Origin: Apostichopus japonicus
Lineage: Eukaryota; Echinodermata; Holothuroidea; Aspidochirotida; Stichopodidae
Assembly: GCF_037975245.1 (NCBI RefSeq)
Contig: NC_092567.1
Coordinates: 15,369,876 to 15,433,875, forward strand
DNA: 64,000 nt
Reading direction: 5' to 3'
Below are positions 18,672-60,652 of this stretch, piece by piece. A program made the translations under genes and the position numbers. Below the pieces are notes generated by a model. The model saw only the letters and a program-made list of their open reading frames with translations. It was not told the origin of the DNA and made no database searches. The first letter of the stretch is position 1, and each line of letters begins with the position of its first letter.

Positions 18672-23508
<4,837 letters not shown>

Positions 23509-25619: not shown

Positions 25620-26720
25620 TGCCACTAGGTCTATTTTCTATATAATCAGAGAGAAGGGACTTGTGTTCAATTACGAAAAATGTGAAATCAAGAAGTTGTA
25701 TTCTTTGGATCAATTTATGACCCAAAAGGTGTGCACCGGTGCAAGACCCTGACGTGTCAAGGATAACAAAACAAAATATATCAAGCCCCAAGAGCTTCAA
25801 AAATTTATAGGTTTAGTCACGTACAAATGTCTCCATGTTTCACCAGGGAGTTGTTAACTCCCTGGTTTCACTGGACAAGCTCCCATAATCAATCCTTTAA
25901 CCAGATAAAGGAGTTAATTAATTAGAAAGCAGTTAATTTTAGCGTATTCTGATCGCAATAAGGAAAGTGTCATTGAAGTGGATGCATCCGTGAAAGGAAT
26001 TGGATGTGTGTTACTGCAAGAATTTCAAACCAGTTAACTTTGCACCAAAAGCCCTAACTGAAACCGAACAAAGATATGTCAACATAGAACGTGAAATGCT
26101 GGCAGTTGTTTATACTTGCGAGAGGTTTCACACCTATATTTATGGAAAATCTTTTATTACCAAAAGTGACCACAAGCCACTTGGAATGATAAAATTGAAG
26201 AACTGTGCCGCGCTGCCTAGATTAGAGAGGTTATTATTAAGGTTACAAGGTTATGACATGAAGATTCAGTATAAACCTGGTAAGGATATGCTTATAGCTG
26301 ACGCACTGTCTAGGTTGAGTCCACTAGAGGAAGGTACAGTAGAAAGACAACAAGTTACTGTTAAATTGTTCAATTCTCTGATGAGAAAGTTAAGTCACTC
26401 CATAGTGAAACTAAGTCAGACCCAGAGTTAAACGTTTTGAAAGACATTATATTAAATGGGTGGCCTGCAAAGCGTCGTGAAGTCCCAAAAACTGATCCAA
26501 AAATACTGGTAATTTAGAGATGAACTAACGATTGAGAATGGTCTTATCATGAAAGGTGACAGAATAATTATTCCATCAACTATGCAGTCTGAAATACTCG
26601 AAAAACTTCACACTGGGCACCAAGGAATTGTAAAATGTCAGCTTAGAGCCAAAACATGCGTCTACTAGGTTAATATCAATAAGGATATCGAAGAGATGGT
26701 TAGAGTGTGTGTTCATTGTC
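25620..26720 (+). pseudogene. Ty3/gypsy retrotransposon remnant, RT-RNase H and integrase N-terminus
   Basis: Successive frames give the end of the reverse transcriptase (EKGLVFNYEKCEIKK), then the RNase H region (VIEVDASVKGIGCVLLQE and, frame-shifted, EREMLAVVYTCERFHTYIYG, SDHKPL, DALSRL). The integrase HHCC region follows (EKLHTGHQGIVKCQLRAK ... VCVHC). Stops and frameshifts occur throughout. The order RT, RNase H, integrase is that of Ty3/gypsy. The integrase is interrupted after VCVHC by a LINE, and its core resumes at about 27700. No LTRs were recognised. Confidence 0.85.
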
Positions 26721-29243: not shown

Positions 29244-32176
29244 GAATGTGTAGCAAGTGGTATGACAGATATATAGTAAATAAATAAAGAATAAAGCACC
29301 AGAAAACTTCCACTTCACGACCGGTTTCGTCCTTTGGGACTCATCATGCGAAGGTAGGAATCGAACCCCAGGATCTTGTGATTCTACTGAATCACTGTGG
29401 TCGAGTGGTGCGGACTTCGGTCTGTGATATATATAATAATAAACTAAATAAATCATAAAATAATTATAACAATAAAAATAATGTATTTTGTTTGATTTCC
29501 ACAGTACCTAATAACAACATTGTGGATGTAGATGTAGAGTGGTACTTGGCAGATGCAGATAAATTCGGTGATACATTATTATGATCTTCATCATCATCAT
29601 CATCATCTTTATCCTCAACATCACCACCACCATCATCATCATCATCATCACCACCATCGTCGTCGTAGATTGATCGAATCGACAAAACATGAATATGCAT
29701 TCTAATATAATTTACTAAGTAACATTAATAAGATGCAAACTGGGAGAAGTCTCACATCCATTGACCGATTGCAGAGACGAGAGAGCTTAGAATCATACGG
29801 AACGGGTGGGGCTGGTGTAAAGCAAAACGGATTTACATTGGTCATGTGCATATCATATATGTACTGTGAATGGTTAGTTTCTTCTCCGTTGAGGTTTTGC
29901 ACACATTGTAGGACTTCATAATTTAGCATGGAGTGGGGAAGGTGAAAAGAGAAATGGATACCGATACATTTATTAAACGGTTTAAATCCACGCTGTGGAA
30001 ACTGCATTTCGGTTCCTCTGTTGTGTCATGAAATATGGCGGGTTTATGGGAGGGGAGGCGGGGGGGGGGGGGAGAAAGTTACATGCTCCTGCTCGCTACC
30101 TCCATTGATATTCAGCGTGGCCATAACTGATTATTTTCTCCCCTTTATCTTTGAAGACCCAGAAAGGGAATGTCCCTTGTCCATTGAGAAGGAGCAGTTG
30201 ACAATACCAACAGAGCGATTCTTAATAGCACTTGCTAGTTTCCCAAGATCTGGCAACAGGTTTACTCGGCAAAACATCTATAAGGTAACTTTGCAAAACA
30301 AACAGGCATATAATGAAGGTAAGAAAAGAGACGTAATTCTCGTAATATCATTGTGAACATTATTGTCGTTGATACCACCCTTTCTGTTATCGAAAAGATT
30401 TTCGATTCGCATATAGCCTTGATCTTTAGATAAAGCCGAGGAGGTCAGCCGTATAGAACACTCTGAACAGTGTGGTGCACGACGTCACCATAACCGACAT
30501 GGACTTCGTTCGATTGACCTGTTGTACACAAAGAGCTCTGTTGCACTGCTGCACGAAGTCTTTTGTTTTGCACAATGCTGTTAACAGACCCCTTGTGCGC
30601 TTTCACGCATGACCTGCTGTACTAATACTGTCAAATTTTAAGTTAAAAAATAAAATAAAACTGTTAGCAAACTGCTTATCGACTAGAGAGCCTGTGTAAG
30701 AGAATGTGTAAAAGTTTTAAGTTTGCTAGCAGACATGTACACCTCCTGCATGTCGGATGCTATTGCATGCGGCTGAACTTTAATACTCCCGTACAGATCG
30801 TGAAAGCAGCACAGCTGCACGCAGACATGCGCTGAGAAGCTCACTGGTCTGATATAGAGTGGTTGCTCTTGAAGTAATTACGTTATATTACAGGAAGATA
30901 TAAGAACCTATAATAAAATTAATAATCACGATTCCCGGGAGATAAGTGTGCATGAAGGTTGCACAGCTTTACGCAGACCTATTTGGAGATGTTGGTTCTG
31001 AACTAGAACAATTGATCCTGGCCTTATTATGTTACAGCAACAAGACAATAGTCTGTCCAATTGATTTATTTCAGCTCATGCTCTATTTCACCTCTATATT
31101 CCCGTTTTTGATATTTTGTTTTGGGTTCTTTGTCTCCATATACAGTACATGGTCTTGACATTAATGACACCGAACCAGATCGTATATGCTACAAGACGCA
31201 TTCGCACGGTTTGAAATACATAAAGTTCTATACAGGTGGCGCCATTTTGTTGTTGAGGAATCCTCGTGACGCGGTTGTGTCATATTTCTTTTTCACTTAC
31301 TCCGACACGGGGCAGCACGACAAGGAAACCGTTAAACAATGGATTAGAACAAATGACAGTAAGTATCAGGTTTTATATGAACGGCGGGTTTGTGGGGTGG
31401 AGCGGTCCGGGATGGGTTGGTGACGGGCGTTGTCTGGGGCGCATACTATGCAGAATGGGGGAAAGAATACTGAAAAATAGTTCATGATAAACGTTACAGA
31501 AATGACACCAGCAAAGATTTGGGACTGAACTGACCGATTCGGAACCGAAAAGGACTTAATAAAAGATACACACACAGCAACAACAATTAATCAAGAACAA
31601 AAACACACCAACGAATCACACACTAGTATAACAGATAAAGATGAAGAAAAAAAAAAAACACGAGAAACTAGACACGAAGAATAAAACGATTCTCTAGGTT
31701 AAAATTTCAATTCTCTGAAAATGTTTCATCGACAAAGCAACTTAGTTTATACTTTGATTGATTTCCTAATGAGATTGATTTCCTAATAAATAACCACATG
31801 TTTAAGAATCTCTTTTGGTCCCTCTCCTCACGCAGCTATTTGGACCAACTTTACCGGAAGAGCGCTTTTGAAATGGCGACAAACCAATTTACACTGGATC
31901 AACTATGGCCACAGAGTCATGATATCATACACAGAGGATATCAGGAAGAATGCCGTACGGGAGCTAGCCAGAATGATAATCTTTGTCGGACAGATGGTAC
32001 CGTTAGATTTCTTGCAGTGTACACTATTTACATTCCCATGGATATCAAGAAAACATTTAGATTTTGAGCCGCCGCTCCCGGAAGGACTAATGAAACGATA
32101 CATAGATGAGGTGAACAATACATTATTGAGCAAAGGCGCGAGGCCGCTGCCTACATACCCGTCCACGTATTTGTGA
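28438..32176 (+). CDS. WSCD-like type II membrane sulfotransferase, gene 4
   Basis: Coding exons are 28438-28657, 29505-29567, 30157-30318, 31146-31358 and 31836-32176. All introns are phase 1; the sum is 999 nt, 332 residues. The acceptor TTATTTTAG precedes the start by a few bases. Met9 and Met13 are alternative starts. Residues about 14-30 are a signal-anchor. The phosphosulfate loop is SFPRSGNRF (122-130) and the 3'-phosphate motif is RNPRDAVVS (Arg186, Ser194). The last exon ([18 protein letters not shown] ... [10 protein letters not shown]) is nearly identical to gene 1's and clearly apart from genes 2 and 3, giving two subgroups. The exon-2 donor is the weak GTGATA. Upstream sequence is a gypsy remnant, so its promoter or first exon may derive from it. 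Acceptor substrate unknown. Confidence 0.87.
28992..29240. repeat. (TA)n microsatellite complex
   Basis: About 250 bp of TA with TG, CA and TT interruptions in intron 1 of gene 4. Its long strand-symmetric runs could form a large hairpin. Confidence 0.95.
29300..29420 (-). ncRNA. tRNA-derived SINE-like fragment with a hammerhead ribozyme motif
   Basis: On the minus strand at 29353-29313 the order is CTTCGC, ATGATGA, stem GTCC-CAAA-GGAC, GAAA, palindrome ACCGGT, C, GTGAAG. These are the parts of a hammerhead: helix I CTTCGC/GTGAAG (one G-U), helix II GTCC/GGAC, GAAA core, and a palindromic helix III as in dimer-acting hammerheads. Position 3 is A where the active core has C, so this copy is probably inactive. 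Immediately 5' is a pol III B-box-like GGTTCGATTCC (29368-29358). On the opposite strand, TGGTCGAGTGG (29399-29409) resembles an A box. It lies in intron 1 of gene 4. Confidence 0.6.
29583..29670 (+). repeat. (CAT)n-rich imperfect trinucleotide repeat
   Basis: CATCAT runs with CAC and CGT interruptions in intron 2 of gene 4, starting 15 bp after the exon-2 donor. Confidence 0.85.
30655..30712. repeat. Fragment shared with the hammerhead element at 58.4 kb
   Basis: GCAAACTGCTTATCGACTAG and AGAGCCTGTGTAAGAGAATG recur with small changes at 58378-58420, where they directly adjoin the hammerhead-like motif. Here the hammerhead part is missing. It is in intron 3 of gene 4. Confidence 0.75.
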
Positions 32177-44604: not shown

Positions 44605-47600
44605 ATGAAGTTTCTGGTCAAACTGCTGAGCTTTTTAACATTAGGCCCACATTCGAACTACCTTTGCATGTTAGGATGTTATACACACTGTCGAATGGGA
44701 GTAAAAGCCAACATTGTTACACGACGAAAATATTTAACAACAGGAAGAGCATTTAGTAATACATCTGTTGACAACATTATAAAAGTAAGTAGGCCTAGGC
44801 CCAACGTTAGCCTTAAGCTTAAATGTTAGGCTATCTTGCACTGTTCAAAGAAAGACCGTGGATTTCATTTGCCTTGACTGGATAAAAAGGTCCCTGGCTT
44901 TTATATAGCATCCCTGGAATTTGTTTGAAGGCCCTGAATTATTTAAATTTTACCTGTTTGGCCTCTTAATAACTTGAACCTAGAGGATAGGTGGTGATTT
45001 TTTATAGTTAGGCTCCAAATGTAAAATTTCATCCATGGTTCACTGCAGATAGAGGCAACCCAGATCATTGGATAATTTCATGTAGGCTAGACTGTAATTC
45101 TCACAAAGCATCATGTTGTACATAGTGTTGATTAATTAAGCTCACAGTGACCTTCATTATTTTGGTATTTGAATTTTATTATGAAAAGTATTTGTTTCTG
45201 GATAAGGTGTTCTAACCTTGGGCATTTGGAAGCCTAGAACCACCAAAACACTGAGAGACCCTCAAAATGCCTTCCTGTACAAATGCAGGATGCATTACAG
45301 TAGGTGCTAAGTTTTGCCCTGGATTTTCCGGATGGAAATCGTAGAGAGGTTGGCATAGCCCTTTATGTAGAATATTTACATTAAAAAACAGGTATAGGGA
45401 AAGGGGAATGTTCAGGTAAATAGTTTGTTCTAAAGTTTGTATTGGGTTGTAACTTTCTATCACCATGACCTGCCAATGTATTAGTTAAAGGGTGTGAAGA
45501 CTCGTGCATTAAGAAACGTCTCATGCTGGTAATCTGACCTAGTTTCGAATGAGGTGTAACAGAACTACTGTATTAGACACCATCATCGATCCTAGAAAAT
45601 ACACACACAGCTTGCTACCGTCGGTATTTCGACACTAGTGTACAGTCAATACATACAGCTGCGGTCAATACCACAACAAAGTGTACATAGCAGCGATGGA
45701 CATCTCAAGTCTAGATAAAAGATAACAAGGTATCACATTTCATTACTGTCTGCATTTTGTAGCGAGAAGCAAAAAACTTCACTTGCAAGCAACGGAAAGT
45801 TAACTTTTTCAGAGGGTGGCACACGTTTTGGGGCGAGTCTTCATTGCCTTTAAGCGCCCACACATGTAATTGGAGGCACTCTTTCCAATAATACTGTAAA
45901 CTGTGGTCAGCAAATATGCTAAAAGAAACAATGAAGTACAGTAGTATTGTTGTTGCCTGTTGAATAGTAACATATATCCCACAGAAACAGTCTGCAGTAT
46001 ATATACACACTGTTTATAGATTTAGACTAGGCCTACACACTGTTGCAATGTAATATCTTTCTTATGGGAATCAACTACCAGTCAGTTGAGAGTACATTTG
46101 TGTGAGAATGGGGCAAAGTAGATATAACTTATGGAAGGAGCGTGTACATTGTGGGTAACTGTTGTAAATTAAAGGCAGCAATCTTTTTCAGTCGATGACA
46201 GTGTGAATTTACTGTACGATATGTACATGCTCCTTAAATGCAATTCTTTTTATTTCTTCCACAGGGTATAGTGTATCATTCAGCTTCTACAGATGTTTTC
46301 CATAACCTTGCCTTTGAAGACTGGTTAGTTTTGTCTTGAAAGATCTGCTTTATTGGCTCCAATTATAGCACGCTATAGCAAGGAAAGATTTGTGATTACG
46401 TAATCGACTTGCCACAGTCTTAAATCGACCACAATTAGCCTGCAAAGGCCTCTTGACACCTTTTGGCTCTTTTTGTAAACACTGTGTGGAATATGTTCAT
46501 GTCTACAGTGTAGCTAATCATACAGCGTTCACACAAGGACCCTCATACAAGACAAAATATGTGGCAGGCGTTGCAGACTAATTGGTAGAAAGAGGTCATT
46601 TTACAACCAAGGCAGGTCGATTATGTAATCTCAAGAAACTTTCCATGATAGCGTGCTATAGTTGGGGTCTATACAGCCGACTTTTAAGGACAGTTTAAGT
46701 TACAATTTTTGATTTTGTTATGTAATGGACAATTACAAGTTATATTTGCCAGACAGGTTTCATTTCCAAAGGCTCCTTCATGTTTGAAAAATTACACTTT
46801 AATCATTGCCAAGGAAGCTTAACAAGTTTTTGGACCAAGTGCTGAGGTAGCTTCATGTCAGGATACAGTATGGAGCATGATACCGAGCTCCATAATAGCT
46901 CCATGCTTAAGAGCACATTAAAACCAGTTCCTCAAAAGCTAGGAGAACAGTAGTCATGTATCTCAATAATAATGACATGTTTTGAGATGCTCTTCAATGT
47001 TGTCAATAAACAGTTTTGTACTTCGTCCGTGTGTGCACTTTAGTTAGTGTGCCAAGGTGAGAAAATTTGAATGATGAATTTAACAGAATTTATAAAACGA
47101 TGCGTTAGCATGAACAGTTTGGCTTCAAATGATTAGGAGATGTCGTTATTCAATCCATAAAATTTTCACATTTTTCACAAAGCAGAATATATATCGTAAT
47201 TTTAAAGCAAATGGACGAAGACAAATGACCTGCATTGTAAGATTGGCATCAAAATAATTAAAAATTTGCCCTTCTAATTGCAACTTGTAATTCGGGGAGA
47301 GGGGATGGACAAGAAGGAAACATGGGTATGGGAAGGTTTTTCACACCATTCGAATATAATAAAGCTAGCTGGCTTATAACTTCATACTTGCAAATTTTGC
47401 ATTACACATAATGTTCTGTGATTCATTTGAGAAATTTGAGAGTCTAAAAGTTATGTGGAACTTCCTCTGTCTATGATGTTAAAGGTGGTGAATTTTTCTG
47501 TGTTTTGCATTAGTTGTTCAGTTTTCATTATTAGAGCAAGTTGGTACAGTAGTAAACTATTAAAGACTGTTCGTAGTTTTGGCTATGTCAAAACAACTGT

Positions 47601-50600
47601 GCCAATCATCGACAACATTTGAAAAAAAAAACAGTTCCACCTCTAAAAAAAAAAAGAGCATATTGTTGAATATAGGAATAACATGAAAGAAGTCAAGTTG
47701 TCACAGTTTATATGATGTCATTTTTACCTTAATTACTCTTTTCTTTTATAACAGGGTTTACAATAACTTAGATTTAACTCATAGTGATGTTCTCCTCTTG
47801 TGGTGCAACTCTCCATGTGTTGTGGTCGGACGACACCAAAATCCATGGGCAGAGTGCAATCACAGGGTCGTAGAGGGGTCAAAGGTGAAAGTTGCACGAA
47901 GAAGGTCTGGTGGAGGGACTGTATATCATGTAAGTTATAAACGCTGAACAGAATATTTGCAAAGTTGGCAGAGAACTTGGTGAAGAAATTTATGAATGTT
48001 TCTGTTTTAAAGGATGCCTTTTATCACAAAATTAGTTCAAATGTACTCTTGGTTTCGTAGAGTTTTAGAAAACACTTCTGACCGTTCAAGTTGCAATTTT
48101 TAAACCACTTTTAATTTTTTGAGATATTACCCTTTAAAATTTGGAGGGTCACCAATGAAAGTGGCTGAACTACCTATTCTAACACCCAAAACTCAATATG
48201 GAAACAGTGTCAGTTTTAGTACTGTTTTTGAAGGACAAATAGTGTTGAATGTCATGCAGGAGTAACCTGTTGTCAATATGAAGAGAATATGAAGAGCATG
48301 TTTTTGGGTGAGTTATTAAAAATTTTTAAAAAACAATTAAAAATTATGATAAAACAATGGATTAACACTAAAATGTTAACCTGCACCTGTTGAGCCCAAC
48401 GCATCATCATCAGTTTAGCCTTAAATGAGCATCGATAAGATTAAATATATTTTCAAGCTAACCATCTTGAAAATTGGAATGGCTATAGAAACATGACATT
48501 AGGAATCAAAATTTTCACTTTAATGTAAGAATATCAAGACTAGAATTCACAGAGAGAAAAAAAAGAATCTTGCTGGATTTACCAAGTAATTTGTATGATA
48601 CATTTGTATGATATGTTTATTTGTGAAAGTGAAATTCTTGCAAAATTGTTTGAGCTAATATTTATGTATGTACAATATTTGTATGTATGTATATATGTAT
48701 TTTAGATCCTCCTGCAAGCAGGAACTCGAGAAGAAGCCTCATTGGCTTATCAAAGCCACAAGCTGACCGAAGTCAGTCTCTAAGATATCATATTTTAACG
48801 TCCATGATTATGAAATTGTCAGCAACTCCGTAACTGAACGACATACATTAATCTTGGAGTGACTCAAACTTGGGACCTTATGATTGAAAGGCACCGGCAT
48901 TAACCACTGAGCTAACACTCCTCGTATATGGAAATATGCTTCCATTATCCATGATACTGTAACGTACTGGATGTATTTCATGTAAGCCTTGATCTCGAGA
49001 TGTTCCCACGCTTAAAGTGACTCTTTTATATAAATTTCTAATTTGAAATGAATTTTTAGTTTTGTTTGTAAATGCTCTGCATTTCCCATCCCACTCCCTC
49101 CTCTCAGGACCGAGGGAATCTCAACTGTTCGTTCTTCACAAGTAGAGAGAGATATAACAGACAGAAGAATTTAAAGACCATCATCTCGGGAGTGAAGAGA
49201 AGATGGCCATTGGTTGATTTGGAGGCGACTTGTAGGGATGACATCATGTTAAACAAAGACTTCAAGGTAAAATAATCAAAATGTGAAACAGCGCCACTCT
49301 GTAATATAATTAAGATTGCAGTGCTTTGAAGCAGCATTTTAAGTCGATTTTAAGTAGATGCCCTTTTTACTGGATTTCTGGTTATGTTTGTTTTCTAATT
49401 TGCTATTTTTCATTTTGGTTATCAATAATATCATTTAGCTTGCCTCAATTTTACTCTTTTGAAATAAGTATGAACTGATTTTGTTACATTTTAAAGTCAA
49501 GGAGAACAATATGAGATAATGGTTGAAATCTATTTTCTCCAACTATGGTCAATGCATCCATTTATTGTTCTTCATTGTAGCATCCTCTCACAATATACAA
49601 CTTTCTTTATTTTAAAGTACTTTTCTTGTATGGTATTCAAGGAAAAAAGGAAAAATGTTATCAGTTTCTTTGTCATTTGGGATGTTTATTGATTACTTGT
49701 TTTCATATACTACATCTACTTTTAATGACAGGTATTGTGATAATTAAAACGACCCAGAATTTTGGGGTACAGGATTTTTTTGTGTGTCTCTGCTGTCTGT
49801 TTGAATAATATTGCTATTCATTTCAAGTTACAGTCTACCTGTTTTGAATTTCTTTTACCAGATATCGGGGTCGGCTTCTAGGCTAGGTAGAGATATCGCT
49901 TACCACCACTGTACTTTACTGCACAGCTGTAACAAAGATATGCTTCTGGAGGTACTCAATGTTAAGTCGGTAAGTGGAATATATCACAGTGTTTAATAAC
50001 ACTATTTACTTGTGGGAATACACAGTGTTATGATAGTAGTAAGTTGAAGATGTTACAAAGAAAGAAGGTAAAATATGCATGAATTGGGAAGACTAAGTGT
50101 TGAGTTAATAACTGGAATCTTTTACATTAATTGGTAAGGTATGCATCAAGGGAAATGCTCAGTGCTGCCTTGGTATTAGAATATGTTAAAATGGTGAGAA
50201 ATACGCACACCGAAGTGCTCTTTGTTATTAGTACGTATTAACTTATTAAATATTTTCAGTTTTGCTTTGTTTTATTTCTCTCTAATTACTCTGTTCATTG
50301 TTTTTTCTTTATCTTTCTGATTTGACTTTTTTTTTCAGTTTTTCAGGGAGTGAAGCTCTTCGACAAGCTCCTTGTTTTTTTTATTTTTATTTTTGTTTAT
50401 TTTAGTTTTACTGCCCTCTATTATTTTTGTTATTTTGTGCAATTTACTATGTACAATGTACTATTTTATGTTGTAGAAAAACAAAGAAATGAAATGTATG
50501 GTAAAATTTGCCATTGTTGTTGCTATTGGTTAAAAGTACTTGAAACAGTACATATCATGTTCCCATTGGTTATTCCACACAGAATGGCATTACTCACACC

Positions 50601-53600
50601 TACATGTATGATAATTTGCCATTGTTGTTGCTATTAGTTAAAAGTACTTGAAACAGTACAATTCATGTTCCCATTGGTTATTCCACACAGAATGGCATTA
50701 CTCACACCTACATGTATGGGAATTTGCCATTGTTGTTGCTATTGGTTAAAAGTACTTGAAACAGTACAATTCATGTTCCCATTGGTTATTCCACACAGAA
50801 TGGCATTACTCACACCTACATGTATGATAATTTGCCATTGTTGTTGCTATTGGTTAAAAGTACTTGAAACAGTACAATTCATGTTCCCATTGGTTATTCC
50901 ACACAGAATGGCATTACTCACACCTACATGTATGGGAATTTGCCATTGTTGTTGCTATTGGTTAAAAGTACTTGAAACAGTACAATTCATGTTCCCATTG
51001 GTTATTCCACACAGAATGGCATTACTCACACCTACATGTATGATAATTTGCCATTGTTGTTGCTATTAGTTAAAAGTACTTGAAACAGTACAATTCATGT
51101 TCCCATTGGTTATTCCACACAGAATGGCATTACTCACACCTACATGTATGGGAATTTGCCATTGTTGTTGCTATTGGTTAAAAGTACTTGAAACAGTACA
51201 ATTCATGTTCCCATTGGTTATTCCACACAGAATGGCATTACTCACACCTACATGTATGATAATTTGCCATTGTTGTTGCTATTAGTTAAAAGTACTTGAA
51301 ACAATAAATTTCATGTTCTCATAGGTTATTCCACACAGAATGGCATTACTCACACCTACATGTATGATAATTTGCCATTGTTGTTGCTATTAGTTAAAAG
51401 TACTTGAAACAGTACATTTCATGTTCTCATAGGTTATTCCATACAGGATGGCATTACTCACACCTACATGTATGGGAATTTGCCATTGTTGTTGCTAATG
51501 GTTAAAAGTACTTGAAACAGTACATTTCATGTTCTCATAGGTTATTCCATACAGGATTGCATTACTTACACCTACATGTATGGGAATTTGCCATTGTTGT
51601 TGCTATTGGTTAAAAGTACTTGAAACAGTACAATTCATGTTCCCATTGGTTATTCCACACAGAATGGCATTACTCACAAGGCGACTGCCAGTGTACCATC
51701 ACCGGTCAAGAATCTAGGAGATATGGACGCCCGTGTTTACCATGAGAGCCTCATTCAGACCATCGCTGATCAGTTCTACACTGAGAGGGAACCGTTAGGT
51801 AAACCAGTGGTATGTATCAACGATTTAAAAGTCATTTGTTCCTATGGCACTGTACAGGACAGTGGTACAGTGATATTGTCTCTAAGGAGGCCAAAACATA
51901 TCGTCCTTGATGTCGTAGAGGTACAGTAACTGAAACGAAAAAGTTGTCAAAAACAGATCAGAAATATCTCATCCCAGTTTGAATGATATCATAGGTTTTA
52001 ATTTTCCTTTTCACATAGGGCTAAAATGACTTGAGCAAGTCTAAATAAATATGACATCATGCAGCCGTATGTGTGCCAACCTTTTATGTTTTTTTTCAAA
52101 GAAAAAATGTATTATTTATTAATTACTCTTTCTTTGTTCAAGACGGGTTTTGCAAATGCGGAATCAAAAACTATCGAATCTCTGATAATGATCTACCGAT
52201 GACAGTGGTTTCCGTTGCAACACTGTCAACATTCTACCTTAATTGTGTGAAAAGAAAACAGAACAAAATGAAAGTGATCTGTGTTCAGATGGGTGGTTTC
52301 CTAATTGCTGTCACGACACACCCTAAGCTGTAACTATTGCCACCCGAAGGCCGTCGTCAAAACAGTTCCATTGCGTCAGACGAAGCTAGCACTGCGACTC
52401 CTTTTAGCCTTCTCATATATTTGTCGTAATAAAAAACACTTCAGTTTCTTTAGAAGTAGCTTTCGTTTTCGAATCCTCGACGGATGACGTTAATGGCGCC
52501 GACTCCCCTCGAGAGTGATTTTGTCGCAGCCTTTGTCGCGGCCAGTTTCCCCAGGTCGCAAACTTGATCCGTAAGCGTGTATTTGCAGTGACTTTCCAAA
52601 TAGAGAAAATAAGAGATTTGGGAAAGGCTTTCTGCTCTTCAAAGTCATTTTCATTTTGGGAATTCAGAGAACAAAGGTTGTTATAACAGAACGTAAATGT
52701 TGAAAATAAGTAGGATGAGATTTCCTGCCTCTCTCCCATCCGAGGGGGCAGAGACTGCAGGTTGTCGAGTTTCGAGAAACTAGACAGGATCGATATCATA
52801 GAACCCCCCCCCCCCCTTTTTTGATTGCGACGTTGGCTCTGGACCCCCCATTAAATGAAGTAGGAATATTTGCATATTTCATTTCATTTGGGAGACACAA
52901 AATCTCTGTATTGAATAGTCTAATCATCACTCACTCACTCATTAGGAATAGTCAGATAGTTTTTACCCACATTGATCAGGTCGGTCTCAATATCCACCCC
53001 AAACACCCTCTTCCTCCCTGACCCATTACCTCCTTTCCCCCCTCCCCCCTCTTCCGCCCCATCGCCATCTAGGTGAAACGGTCATTTGATCTCATTGTGG
53101 AGTAAGAGTGTGCTGTGGTGTCTGGATGGCGGTGGTTATTAAAACACATAGATTTAATGGATGATTTCTAGCTGATTAATTCATTCTTTAAGGCATTGAA
53201 GACTCGCCCCAAACCGCGTACGGCCATCTGAAAAGGTTAACTTTCCGTTGCTTGCAAGTGACGTTTTGTTCGTGTCGCTACAAAATGCAGACAGTACAGT
53301 AATGAAACGTGATACCTTGTTATCTTTAGCTGGACCTGAGATGTCCATCGCTGTATTGTTTGTACACTGTGTTGTGGGTATTGACTGCAGCTTTATGTAC
53401 TGACTGTACACTAGTGTCTAATTACAGAAGGTAGCAAGCTGTGTGTGTGTATTTTCTGGGATTGTATGGTGGTGTTTAACACTTCTGTTACACCTTTGAA
53501 ACTAGGTCAGATAACCGGCAATAGACGTTTCTTTTTGCGCGAGTCTTCGCACCCTTTAATCATTACAGAAGGCCAAGGCACAGATTCAGACGCAAAGTAA

Positions 53601-59600: not shown

Positions 59601-60652
59601 GCCGTTTCATTTGTCGAGCGTTAACGAAAATTTATGGAATCCTTGTGTTTTCCTTTATTTTTTAGAGGTTGTATTTTAAATCACTCATTTGAAGCATCAA
59701 TTAATAATCATTTTCATTAGCATTGGCTCTCCACTTGCGCTTATAAAGGTGTTGTTTTTCATGTTTTAATCGCTACTTTTTTTCAAACTTTTGATAAGAT
59801 GATTATTTTCTAGTTGAAATATGAGTTGAACAGACACCACTAATCCATCAGCGTCAAAACATTAACGAAAATTTATGGAATCCTTGTGTTTTCCTTTATT
59901 TTTTAGAGGTTGTATTAAAATCACTCATTTGAAGCATCAATTAATAATCATTTTCATTAGCATCGGCTCTCCACTTGTGCTTATAAACGTGTTGTTTTTC
60001 ATGTTTTTATCGCCACTTCTTTTTCAAACTTTTGATAAGATGATTATTTTCTAGTTGAAATATGAGTTGAACAGACACCAATAATCCATCAGCGTCAAAA
60101 CATTAACGAAAATTTATGGAATCCTTGTGTTTTCCTTTATTTTTTAGAGGTTGTATTTTAAATCACTCATTTGAAGCATCAATTAATAATCATTTTCATT
60201 AGCATTGGCTCTCCACTTGCGCTTATAAACGTGTTGTTTTTCAGGTTTTTATCGCCACTTCTTTTTCAAACTTTTGATAAGATGAATATTTTCTAGTTGA
60301 AATATGAGTTGAACAGACACCAATAATCCATCAGCGTCAAAACATTAACGAAAATTGATGGAATCCTTGTGTTTTCCTTTATTTTTTAGAGGTTGTATTA
60401 AAATCACTCATTTGTAGCATCAATTAATAATAATTTTCATTAGCATTGGCTCTCCACTTGCGATTATGACGTGTTGCTTTTCAGGTTTTTATCGCCACTT
60501 TTATTTTAAAATTTTGATAAGAGTATGATTTTCTTCTGATTTTCTTTTATGTTCCCTACTTTTTTATTCTGTTCTCAACCCAGATCTATGATGTCGATCC
60601 TTCCGATGCCCAGATTTGGCCAGGTGTGCACAGTTACAGAGAAGAACTTCAA
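44605..60652 (+). CDS. LIPT1: Lipoyltransferase 1, mitochondrial (3' exons beyond the window)
   Basis: Exons are 44605-44784, 46265-46323, 47755-47929, 49108-49266, 49862-49969, 51663-51809 and 60584-60652, all GT-AG and frame-consistent; 299 codons are in view of about 370 expected. The start could also be Met22 (44668). The first exon is basic and lacks acids before TTGRAFSN, suiting a mitochondrial presequence. Family motifs in order are NLAFEDW, VVVGRHQNPWAECN, ARRRSGGGTVYHDRGNLN, FKISGSASRLGR (with the catalytic-type lysine) and IWPGVHSYREELQ. The enzyme transfers lipoyl groups to 2-oxoacid dehydrogenase E2 subunits in the mitochondrial matrix. Introns are full of repeats, including a minisatellite that copies the exon-6 acceptor. 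The C-terminal exons were not found before base 64000. Confidence 0.93.
45485..45853 (-). mobile_element. TTAA-type MITE family A, copy 3 (inverted)
   Basis: Reads GTTAAAGGGTGTGAAGACTC at the left and GAGTCTTCATTGCCTTTAA at the right, the reverse of the other copies. It is in intron 1 of LIPT1. Confidence 0.85.
46336..46687 (+). mobile_element. TTAA-type MITE family B, copy 1
   Basis: Inverted ends: TTGGCTCCAATTATAGCACG at the left against CGTGCTATAGTTGGGGTC at the right, within an element of about 350 bp ending in TTTTAA. The second copy is 55073-55425. It starts only about 12 bp after the LIPT1 exon-2 donor. Confidence 0.8.
48090..48490 (+). repeat. Old dispersed repeat, copy in LIPT1 intron 3
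   Basis: Weak but collinear similarity to 37905-38300, and in its 3' part to 10830-10990: a GTGGCTGAACTA-like start, AACAATGGATTAACA, CAGTTTAGCCTTAAA, then ATCTTGAAAATT. Boundaries and class are unknown. Confidence 0.45.
48700..48925 (-). mobile_element. tRNA-derived SINE
   Basis: On the minus strand the head reads GTGTTAGCTCAGTGGTTAAT (pol III A box, as in tRNAs) and then GGTCCCAAGTTTGAGTCA (B-box-like). A tRNA-unrelated body follows (TTGTGGCTTTGATAAGCC, TTCTTCTCGAGTTCCTGC) and a tail of ACATAC-type repeats near 48700. A box, B box, body and short-repeat tail are the structure of a SINE. It lies in intron 3 of LIPT1. Confidence 0.8.
50507..51680 (+). repeat. 108-bp minisatellite, 11 units, overlapping the LIPT1 exon-6 acceptor
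   Basis: Units begin TTTGCCATTGTTGTTGC at 50507 and every 108 bp to 51587. Each carries CCATTGGTTATTCCACACAG followed by AATGGCATTACTCACA, and the last unit's copy is the real exon-6 acceptor and first codons (51663). Units alternate between two variants (GTATGGG and GTATGAT joints), suggesting a 216-bp higher-order step. Units 9 and 10 have ATACAG|GAT instead. Because 108 is divisible by three, one plus frame runs open across the whole array; it is not a gene. Confidence 0.97.
51810..53186. other. LIPT1 intron 6, left part
   Basis: No repeat family or exon was recognised; C-runs at 52804-52816 and 53037-53050. Confidence 0.5.
53187..53559 (+). mobile_element. TTAA-type MITE family A, copy 4
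   Basis: Left end TTTAAGGCATTGAAGACTCG and right end GAGTCTTCGCACCCTTTAA. It has an 8-bp expansion of a GT run (GTGTGTGTGT) relative to copies 1 and 2. LIPT1 intron 6. Confidence 0.85.
55073..55425 (+). mobile_element. TTAA-type MITE family B, copy 2
   Basis: Begins TTAAAGATCTGCTTAATGGG and ends CAGCAGACCTTTAA. It shares GTCCATGTCTACAGTGTAG, AGCGTTCACACAA and ATATGTGGCAGGC with copy 1. LIPT1 intron 6. Confidence 0.85.
56950..57055 (-). repeat. Short dispersed hairpin element, copy 2
   Basis: Inverted copy of 5270-5380. On the minus strand it reads TCTGATTGGCCGGTTGTCGT, then a hairpin with GACCGTGGTACACTGACC and GGTATTGCACGGTAAT. The hairpin arms differ from copy 1. LIPT1 intron 6. Confidence 0.6.
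57872..57906 (+). repeat. GGATGGAGGGGGGGG direct repeat
   Basis: Two tandem copies of a G-run unit in LIPT1 intron 6. Confidence 0.85.
58373..58462 (-). ncRNA. Penelope-type fragment with hammerhead-like motif, copy 2
   Basis: The motif at 58426-58462 has the same order as at 35814-35850: helix I CCT/AGG, core CTGAAGA plus one A, stem GATCCT-GCT-AGGATC, GAAA, CGTC. The stem differs from the first copy by a T-A to C-G pair exchange. The adjacent 58378-58420 matches the fragment at 30655-30712. No reverse transcriptase is present, so this is a solo terminal-repeat-like piece. Confidence 0.65.
59150..59470 (-). repeat. Dispersed repeat with AAT microsatellite and AGCGCC/GGCGCT arms
   Basis: An (AATA/AAT)n tract is followed by TTAATATAGCGCCAAATACC and AGGCCTCTAGGCGCTTTTAC, a pattern common at the ends of invertebrate retroposons, and then an A-rich tail region. 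The class is not certain. Confidence 0.5.
59561..60534 (+). repeat. About 241-bp tandem repeat, 4 copies
   Basis: Units start GTTGAAATATGAGTTGAACA at 59561 (variant), 59813, 60054 and 60296. They share ACGAAAATTTATGGAATCCT, TTGAAGCATCAATTAATAAT and GGCTCTCCACTTGCGCTTAT. The array ends 50 bp before LIPT1 exon 7. Confidence 0.93.

Follow-up and report, generated by a model that had tools for sequence, protein, structure and literature searches.

A row of eleven near-identical splice acceptors in the LIPT1 gene of the sea cucumber Apostichopus japonicus: a probable mirage

Introduction

How does the splicing machinery settle on one 3′ splice site when near-identical copies of that site stand before it in a row? 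The question is raised by the LIPT1 gene of the sea cucumber Apostichopus japonicus, in a stretch of 64,000 nucleotides of contig NC_092567.1 (assembly GCF_037975245.1, forward-strand positions 15,369,876 to 15,433,875), hereafter the window, in whose numbering coordinates are given. In this gene, a minisatellite repeats the end of an intron together with the first bases of the following exon, here called exon 'e', whose own acceptor is the last of eleven.

Tandem repeats over exon–intron boundaries were named 'mirages' in the lancelet Adh3 gene and found in the lancelet globin genes BflGb6 and BflGb9, for which reverse transcription PCR suggests normal splicing and in which repeat length differs between haplotypes (PMC3087553). 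Tandem repeats at splice sites were also described in lancelet PGBD5, with troponin C cited there as a similar case (PMC3902484), and intron gain from tandem duplications is cited in PMC3087553. We consider it very probable that the LIPT1 array is a mirage, formed by neutral tandem duplication at the gene's own boundary, in which the last acceptor would be chosen by exon definition.

Results

Anatomy of the array

The array occupies 50505–51678, with a period of 108 bp, 10.9 copies and a 96% match, arranged head to tail (Tandem Repeats Finder, run on the window). When the units were delimited by splitting at AATTTGCC, they started at 50505 + 108k, giving ten full units and a final 94-nt unit that enters the exon. 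In the features below, a slash marks an exon edge.

50505..51584, plus strand: ten complete 108-bp units; each contains an intron end, AG, a 16-nt copy of the start of exon 'e', CCTAC filler and ATGTATGR
50583..50605, plus strand: 23-nt pseudo micro-exon of unit 1, given as an example, from the copied acceptor to CTACAT/GTATGA; recurs every 108 bp in ten units
51261..51584, plus strand: units 8–10, a diverged subgroup
51585..51678, plus strand: unit 11 (94 nt), with the true intron end and acceptor and the exon start at 51663

Each unit comprises 78 nt up to the acceptor, 16 nt of exon and then the junction. The sequence-only reading that drew attention to this locus had described an acceptor cloned eleven times in the span 50507..51809; eleven acceptors do stand in a row, as ten extra copies plus the original, and the array does lie there, though 51809 is the end of the exon and not of the repeat. 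Its description of the units was borne out. Every unit carries the intron end and the first codons of the exon, the AG at the acceptor being kept in all eleven, including 10/10 upstream copies. TTCCACACAG is exact in 9/11 units, TTCCATACAG standing in its place in units 9 and 10, and AATGGCATTACTCACA is likewise exact in 9/11, units 9 and 10 being one and three bases off, respectively. Only unit 11 runs on into the true exon at 51663–51809. The exon copy is followed by CTACAT/GTATG in 10/10 upstream units, five with GTATGG and five with GTATGA, and the micro-exon that each could define is indeed 23 nt long. The 16-nt exon start was copied exactly in 8/10 upstream units, and a branch-like TTCAT motif lies 29 nt 5′ of the exon start in 10/11 units.

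Over its 94 nt, unit 11 was identical to units 3, 4, 5 and 7, and differed at one position from units 2 and 6, at two from unit 1, and at 6, 6 and 8 from units 8, 9 and 10, respectively. Units 1–7 are thus nearly uniform, and units 8–10 form a diverged group. Variation among the units is patterned and affects 14/108 columns. The 30-mer at the acceptor gave ten matches in the window at no more than three mismatches, compared with a mean of 0.00 in 100 shuffles, and unit 10 holds the eleventh acceptor copy, with more than three mismatches.

The host gene and the exon junction

Seven LIPT1 exons were located, and joined they form one open frame. Splice-site scores here and below come from generic matrices, which do not single out true acceptors.

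46265–46323, 47755–47929 and 49108–49266: first three located LIPT1 exons
49862..49969, plus strand: coding exon 'd', found by tblastn with bovine LIPT1; phase 0 end TCG/GTAAGT, donor score 5.01; the upstream splice partner
51663..51809, plus strand: coding exon 'e', 147 nt, donor GTG/GTATGT
60584..60652, plus strand: coding exon 'f', found by tblastn with bovine LIPT1, in open frame
68423–68594: exon 'g', in window numbering continued beyond the window into the adjoining locus L025

The seven-exon product matched bovine LIPT1 (2e5a) with an E value of 3.3e-79 over residues 1–264 of 297, and Pfam PF21948 with 168.1 bits (cut-off 27); it thus has the catalytic domain of a lipoate-protein ligase and is co-linear with a LIPT1 of solved structure. 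Its score with NCBIfam TIGR00545, a collection whose models are made for bacterial and archaeal annotation, was below the cut-off (212.6 vs 280 bits), the located protein being incomplete. The in-phase join of exon 'd', ending at 49969, to exon 'e', starting at 51663, aligns gapless to 2e5a over 77 residues, the GI of NGITHKATAS in the gene aligning with the GI of QGIRSNATAS in 2e5a, and the copied 16 nt encode residues at the place expected from the LIPT1 alignment. The predicted placement of the exon 'e' junction is supported by this homology. No retrocopy showing the mRNA junction was seen with the protein of exons a–e, whose five matches all fell within the LIPT1 gene. The exon had earlier been called exon 6 of LIPT1; the gene is LIPT1 by homology, and exon 'e' is the fifth coding exon located, its number being unconfirmed because neither the first coding exon nor the last exon was found.

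Splice-site strength and consequences for the frame

The acceptors of units 1–7 score the same as the true site (2.69), and those of units 8–10 score 0.34–1.78. Among the seven LIPT1 acceptors, which range from 2.67 to 10.73, the one at 51663 is near the bottom, and nothing within the 94 nt distinguishes it from several of the copies. The donors of the 23-nt micro-exons reach 0.06 or 1.22 bits; those of the seven LIPT1 exons span 1.89–8.22. No GT between about 50500 and 51815 outscores the donor at 51809.

Because 108 nt equal 36 codons, use of an upstream acceptor would extend the exon at its 5′ side in frame; as computed, the frame was kept and a TGA was reached after 22 codons in 10/10 cases. 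Computed inclusion of one to four micro-exons brought a stop each time, three copies restoring the frame length and still giving a stop. It had been suggested that the last of the near-identical acceptors must be chosen or else frameshifted LIPT1 is produced; the acceptors are near-identical, but only a micro-exon would shift the frame. Variable columns were found at 6/36 positions in the acceptor and exon copy and at 8/72 elsewhere (p 0.54), and this comparison gave no sign of selection on the copied sites of the exon 'e' array.

Other repeats around LIPT1 exons

Two further repeats lie near exons of this gene.

L025:3376–4469, in the locus that continues the window by 10 kb: a second, older array, whose five copies each hold the intron end and the first 50 nt or so of exon 'g'
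59621..60534, plus strand: 241-bp × 3.8 minisatellite of the following intron; 49 bp separate its end from exon 'f', which is not copied

In the exon 'g' array, the five upstream copies of the exon start and acceptor region are spaced 176–200 bp apart. The AG is kept in 3/5 copies, and GTAAGA stands 19 nt past the copied exon start in 4/5; an in-frame stop interrupts one copy, and all five are several amino acids off the exon. Such divergence is as expected of unused copies. The minisatellite before exon 'f' holds four acceptor-like sites of the form TTTATTTTTTAG/AGG, which score 5.12, compared with 3.63 for the true exon 'f' acceptor. The occurrence of two arrays over LIPT1 edges gave a binomial p of 0.25 with 13 edges as run (seven exons have 14), and their occurrence over 2/7 acceptors a p of 0.11.

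Survey of exon edges at myosin matches

Exon edges were surveyed at 50 of the 70 myosin-head matches in the genome, giving 100 edges; only repeats reaching 8 bases into the hidden Markov model match were counted, and the exon rate is thus a lower bound. For the control edges, intervals of matching length were placed at random in the flanks, 100 per locus at the 50 loci. Local repeats straddled 4/100 exon edges (one acceptor and three donors) and 737/10000 control edges (Fisher p 0.25, only indicative), and exon edges in the sample were therefore struck no more often than elsewhere, if anything less.

L080: acceptor, about 125 bp × 3, 98%; three CTTAG/GTTGT
L032: donor, 53 bp × 17.4; 19 CTAG/GTADG, the true site included
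L053: donor, 206 bp at 91%
L059: donor, weak; 55 bp at 80%, 400 bp apart

When the survey was run on five LIPT1 loci, the locus with the array was the one flagged. Targeting of acceptors by the duplication process was not supported by these rates.

Discussion

Considering its composition and position, the LIPT1 array most likely arose from the gene's own boundary.

50494..50501, plus strand: ATGTATGG, bordering the array on the left; between 45000 and 60000 it occurs nowhere else but in the array itself

Three results point to this origin: ATGTATGG stands at the left edge, no other copy of the unit was found, and the copied exon residues fit LIPT1. A search of the genome (671.6 Mb) with the unit, which was not exhaustive for repeats, gave 11 matches, all in the array. 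ATGTATGG also follows the filler in 5/10 units, and we infer that it marks the left breakpoint of the first duplication. A tandem duplication would thus have run from inside the LIPT1 intron, near 50494, to 16 nt into the next exon, with the right breakpoint at about 51678 and the CCTAC filler at the duplication junction. The array may then have grown by unequal exchange, leaving copies, flanked by the original intron on one side and the original exon on the other, that would now be intron sequence with complete, unused 3′ splice sites. The near-uniformity of units 1–7 and the divergence of units 8–10 suggest recent growth or exchange in the first part of the array, with which unit 11 stayed.

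The acceptor at 51663 is most likely chosen since it alone opens a real exon, 147 nt long and with a fair donor, whereas the upstream copies would face weak donors 23 nt away. Because the micro-exon donors are weak and the best donor of the region stands at 51809, we infer that the last acceptor is most likely selected via exon definition. The array is real, and most likely a neutral accident of a repeat-rich animal genome.

Several points weigh against this reading. Unit 11 is nearer to units 3–7 than to its neighbours 8–10, which simple one-way growth does not predict, and either exchange along the array or a separate lineage of units 8–10 is needed. The matrices do not pick out the acceptor presumed to be chosen: 3/79 AGs in the region outscore 51663, one of them, at 50347, upstream of the array (8.5 vs 2.69). 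For exons 'f' and 'g', the true acceptors come 21/513 and 18/475, respectively. In the exon 'g' array, the exon parts vary less than the intron parts (13/46 vs 36/77 columns, p 0.057), a borderline difference that gives a weak hint of constraint. Furthermore, the control hits of the myosin survey came from 28/50 loci, and the draws were not independent.

The copied acceptors might instead be in use. In a splicing rheostat, part-time use of upstream acceptors would lead to the in-frame TGA and nonsense-mediated decay, and repeat number would tune the LIPT1 level between individuals. Retention of the AG in all ten upstream copies, the equal scores of units 1–7 and the true site, the weakness of that site among the seven LIPT1 acceptors and the stop after 22 codons at each read-through use all suit such a rheostat. 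We nevertheless regard it as unlikely, considering that the copied sites are without sign of constraint, that the AG is gone in 2/5 copies of the older exon 'g' array, and that lancelet mirages reportedly leave the mRNA unaltered (PMC3087553, PMC3902484). Taken further, the number of cloned acceptors would be a heritable and rapidly changing dial, each decoy unit sending some LIPT1 transcripts towards decay by way of an in-frame stop, so that repeat number would set lipoylation capacity, in a genome that would hold a great many such dials if the rate of 4/100 edges holds; this extension is speculative and somewhat less probable still. It is very improbable that genuine 23-nt micro-exons are spliced in, each running from a copied acceptor to a GTATGR donor. 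The acceptor–GT distance is 23 nt in 10/10 upstream units, and in the exon 'g' array three of the four copies with GTAAGA at 19 nt keep the AG; however, the donors are far below the seven real ones, including one to four such exons gives a stop, and 23 nt is far below the usual exon size.

Other explanations concern the array's source. Minisatellites are dense here (15326/150000 flank bases at the 50 myosin matches are local repeats), and a dispersed satellite or mobile repeat might have inserted first, its internal acceptor being taken over by the exon. The genome search, which was not exhaustive for repeats, turned up the unit in this array alone, and the translated 16 copied exon bases fall gapless into the LIPT1 alignment; this order of events is highly doubtful, and a dispersed-repeat origin is disfavoured by that search. 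That the array or its copy number is an assembly artefact is extremely unlikely: tandem arrays are error-prone, and two records of the lancelet PGBD5 gene differ in copy number (PMC3902484), but the unit differences are patterned and high-fidelity (HiFi) reads easily span 1.2 kb. Reads of this type were used for what is probably the source assembly (PMC10344927).

A mirage thus remains the preferred reading. The LIPT1 array shares the structural features tested, being a head-to-tail, minisatellite-like repeat whose unit spans the intron end and part of the neighbouring exon, and by analogy it would work like the lancelet mirages, in whose Adh3 and globin arrays many copies likewise keep AG/GT (PMC3087553). 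It differs from these in its eleven acceptors, 108-bp unit and sea cucumber host, and is known here from one assembly; it is notable for the regularity of those eleven acceptors. Lancelet PGBD5 is an unrelated gene, and the 108-bp length that its array has in common with that of LIPT1 (PMC3902484) is taken as a coincidence. In intron gain via tandem duplication, duplicated boundaries similarly serve as raw material for new exons or introns (as cited in PMC3087553), whereas LIPT1 keeps its seven located exons in frame, with no new intron evident. A literature search of partial coverage for mirages in echinoderms or sea cucumbers gave only the lancelet PGBD5 paper (PMC3902484), and one of the same kind for variable number tandem repeats with a splice acceptor, or for LIPT1 with a minisatellite, found none. 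The locus had been presented as a singular case; it belongs to a known class, with a second array in LIPT1 itself and further cases at myosin matches.

The locus offers a clean natural test, in which the spliceosome picks one of eleven acceptors with identical or almost identical flanks, 78 nt before and 16 nt after; what decides the choice must therefore lie beyond unit position 94 or in the place in the row. The results further suggest that mirages, far from being peculiar to lancelets, arise as a general by-product wherever local tandem duplication is frequent, and that they may be a steady raw material for intron and exon change.

Other observations in the window and genome

Four features apart from LIPT1 were also recorded.

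18672–23508: 4.8-kb CTAT-type microsatellite, an 8-bp unit repeated about 605 times; 3/3 forward frames are open
25994–26431: open frame resembling the RNase H end of a retrotransposon polyprotein, as judged by eye
29313–29353, minus strand: match to the Rfam hammerhead ribozyme type I (35.3 bits vs a gathering threshold of 34), adjoining an AT-rich repeat
G000:C29:15336–15927, elsewhere in the genome: second COX1-like stretch, in two pieces and outside contig 35, possibly a nuclear copy or a duplicate mitochondrial contig

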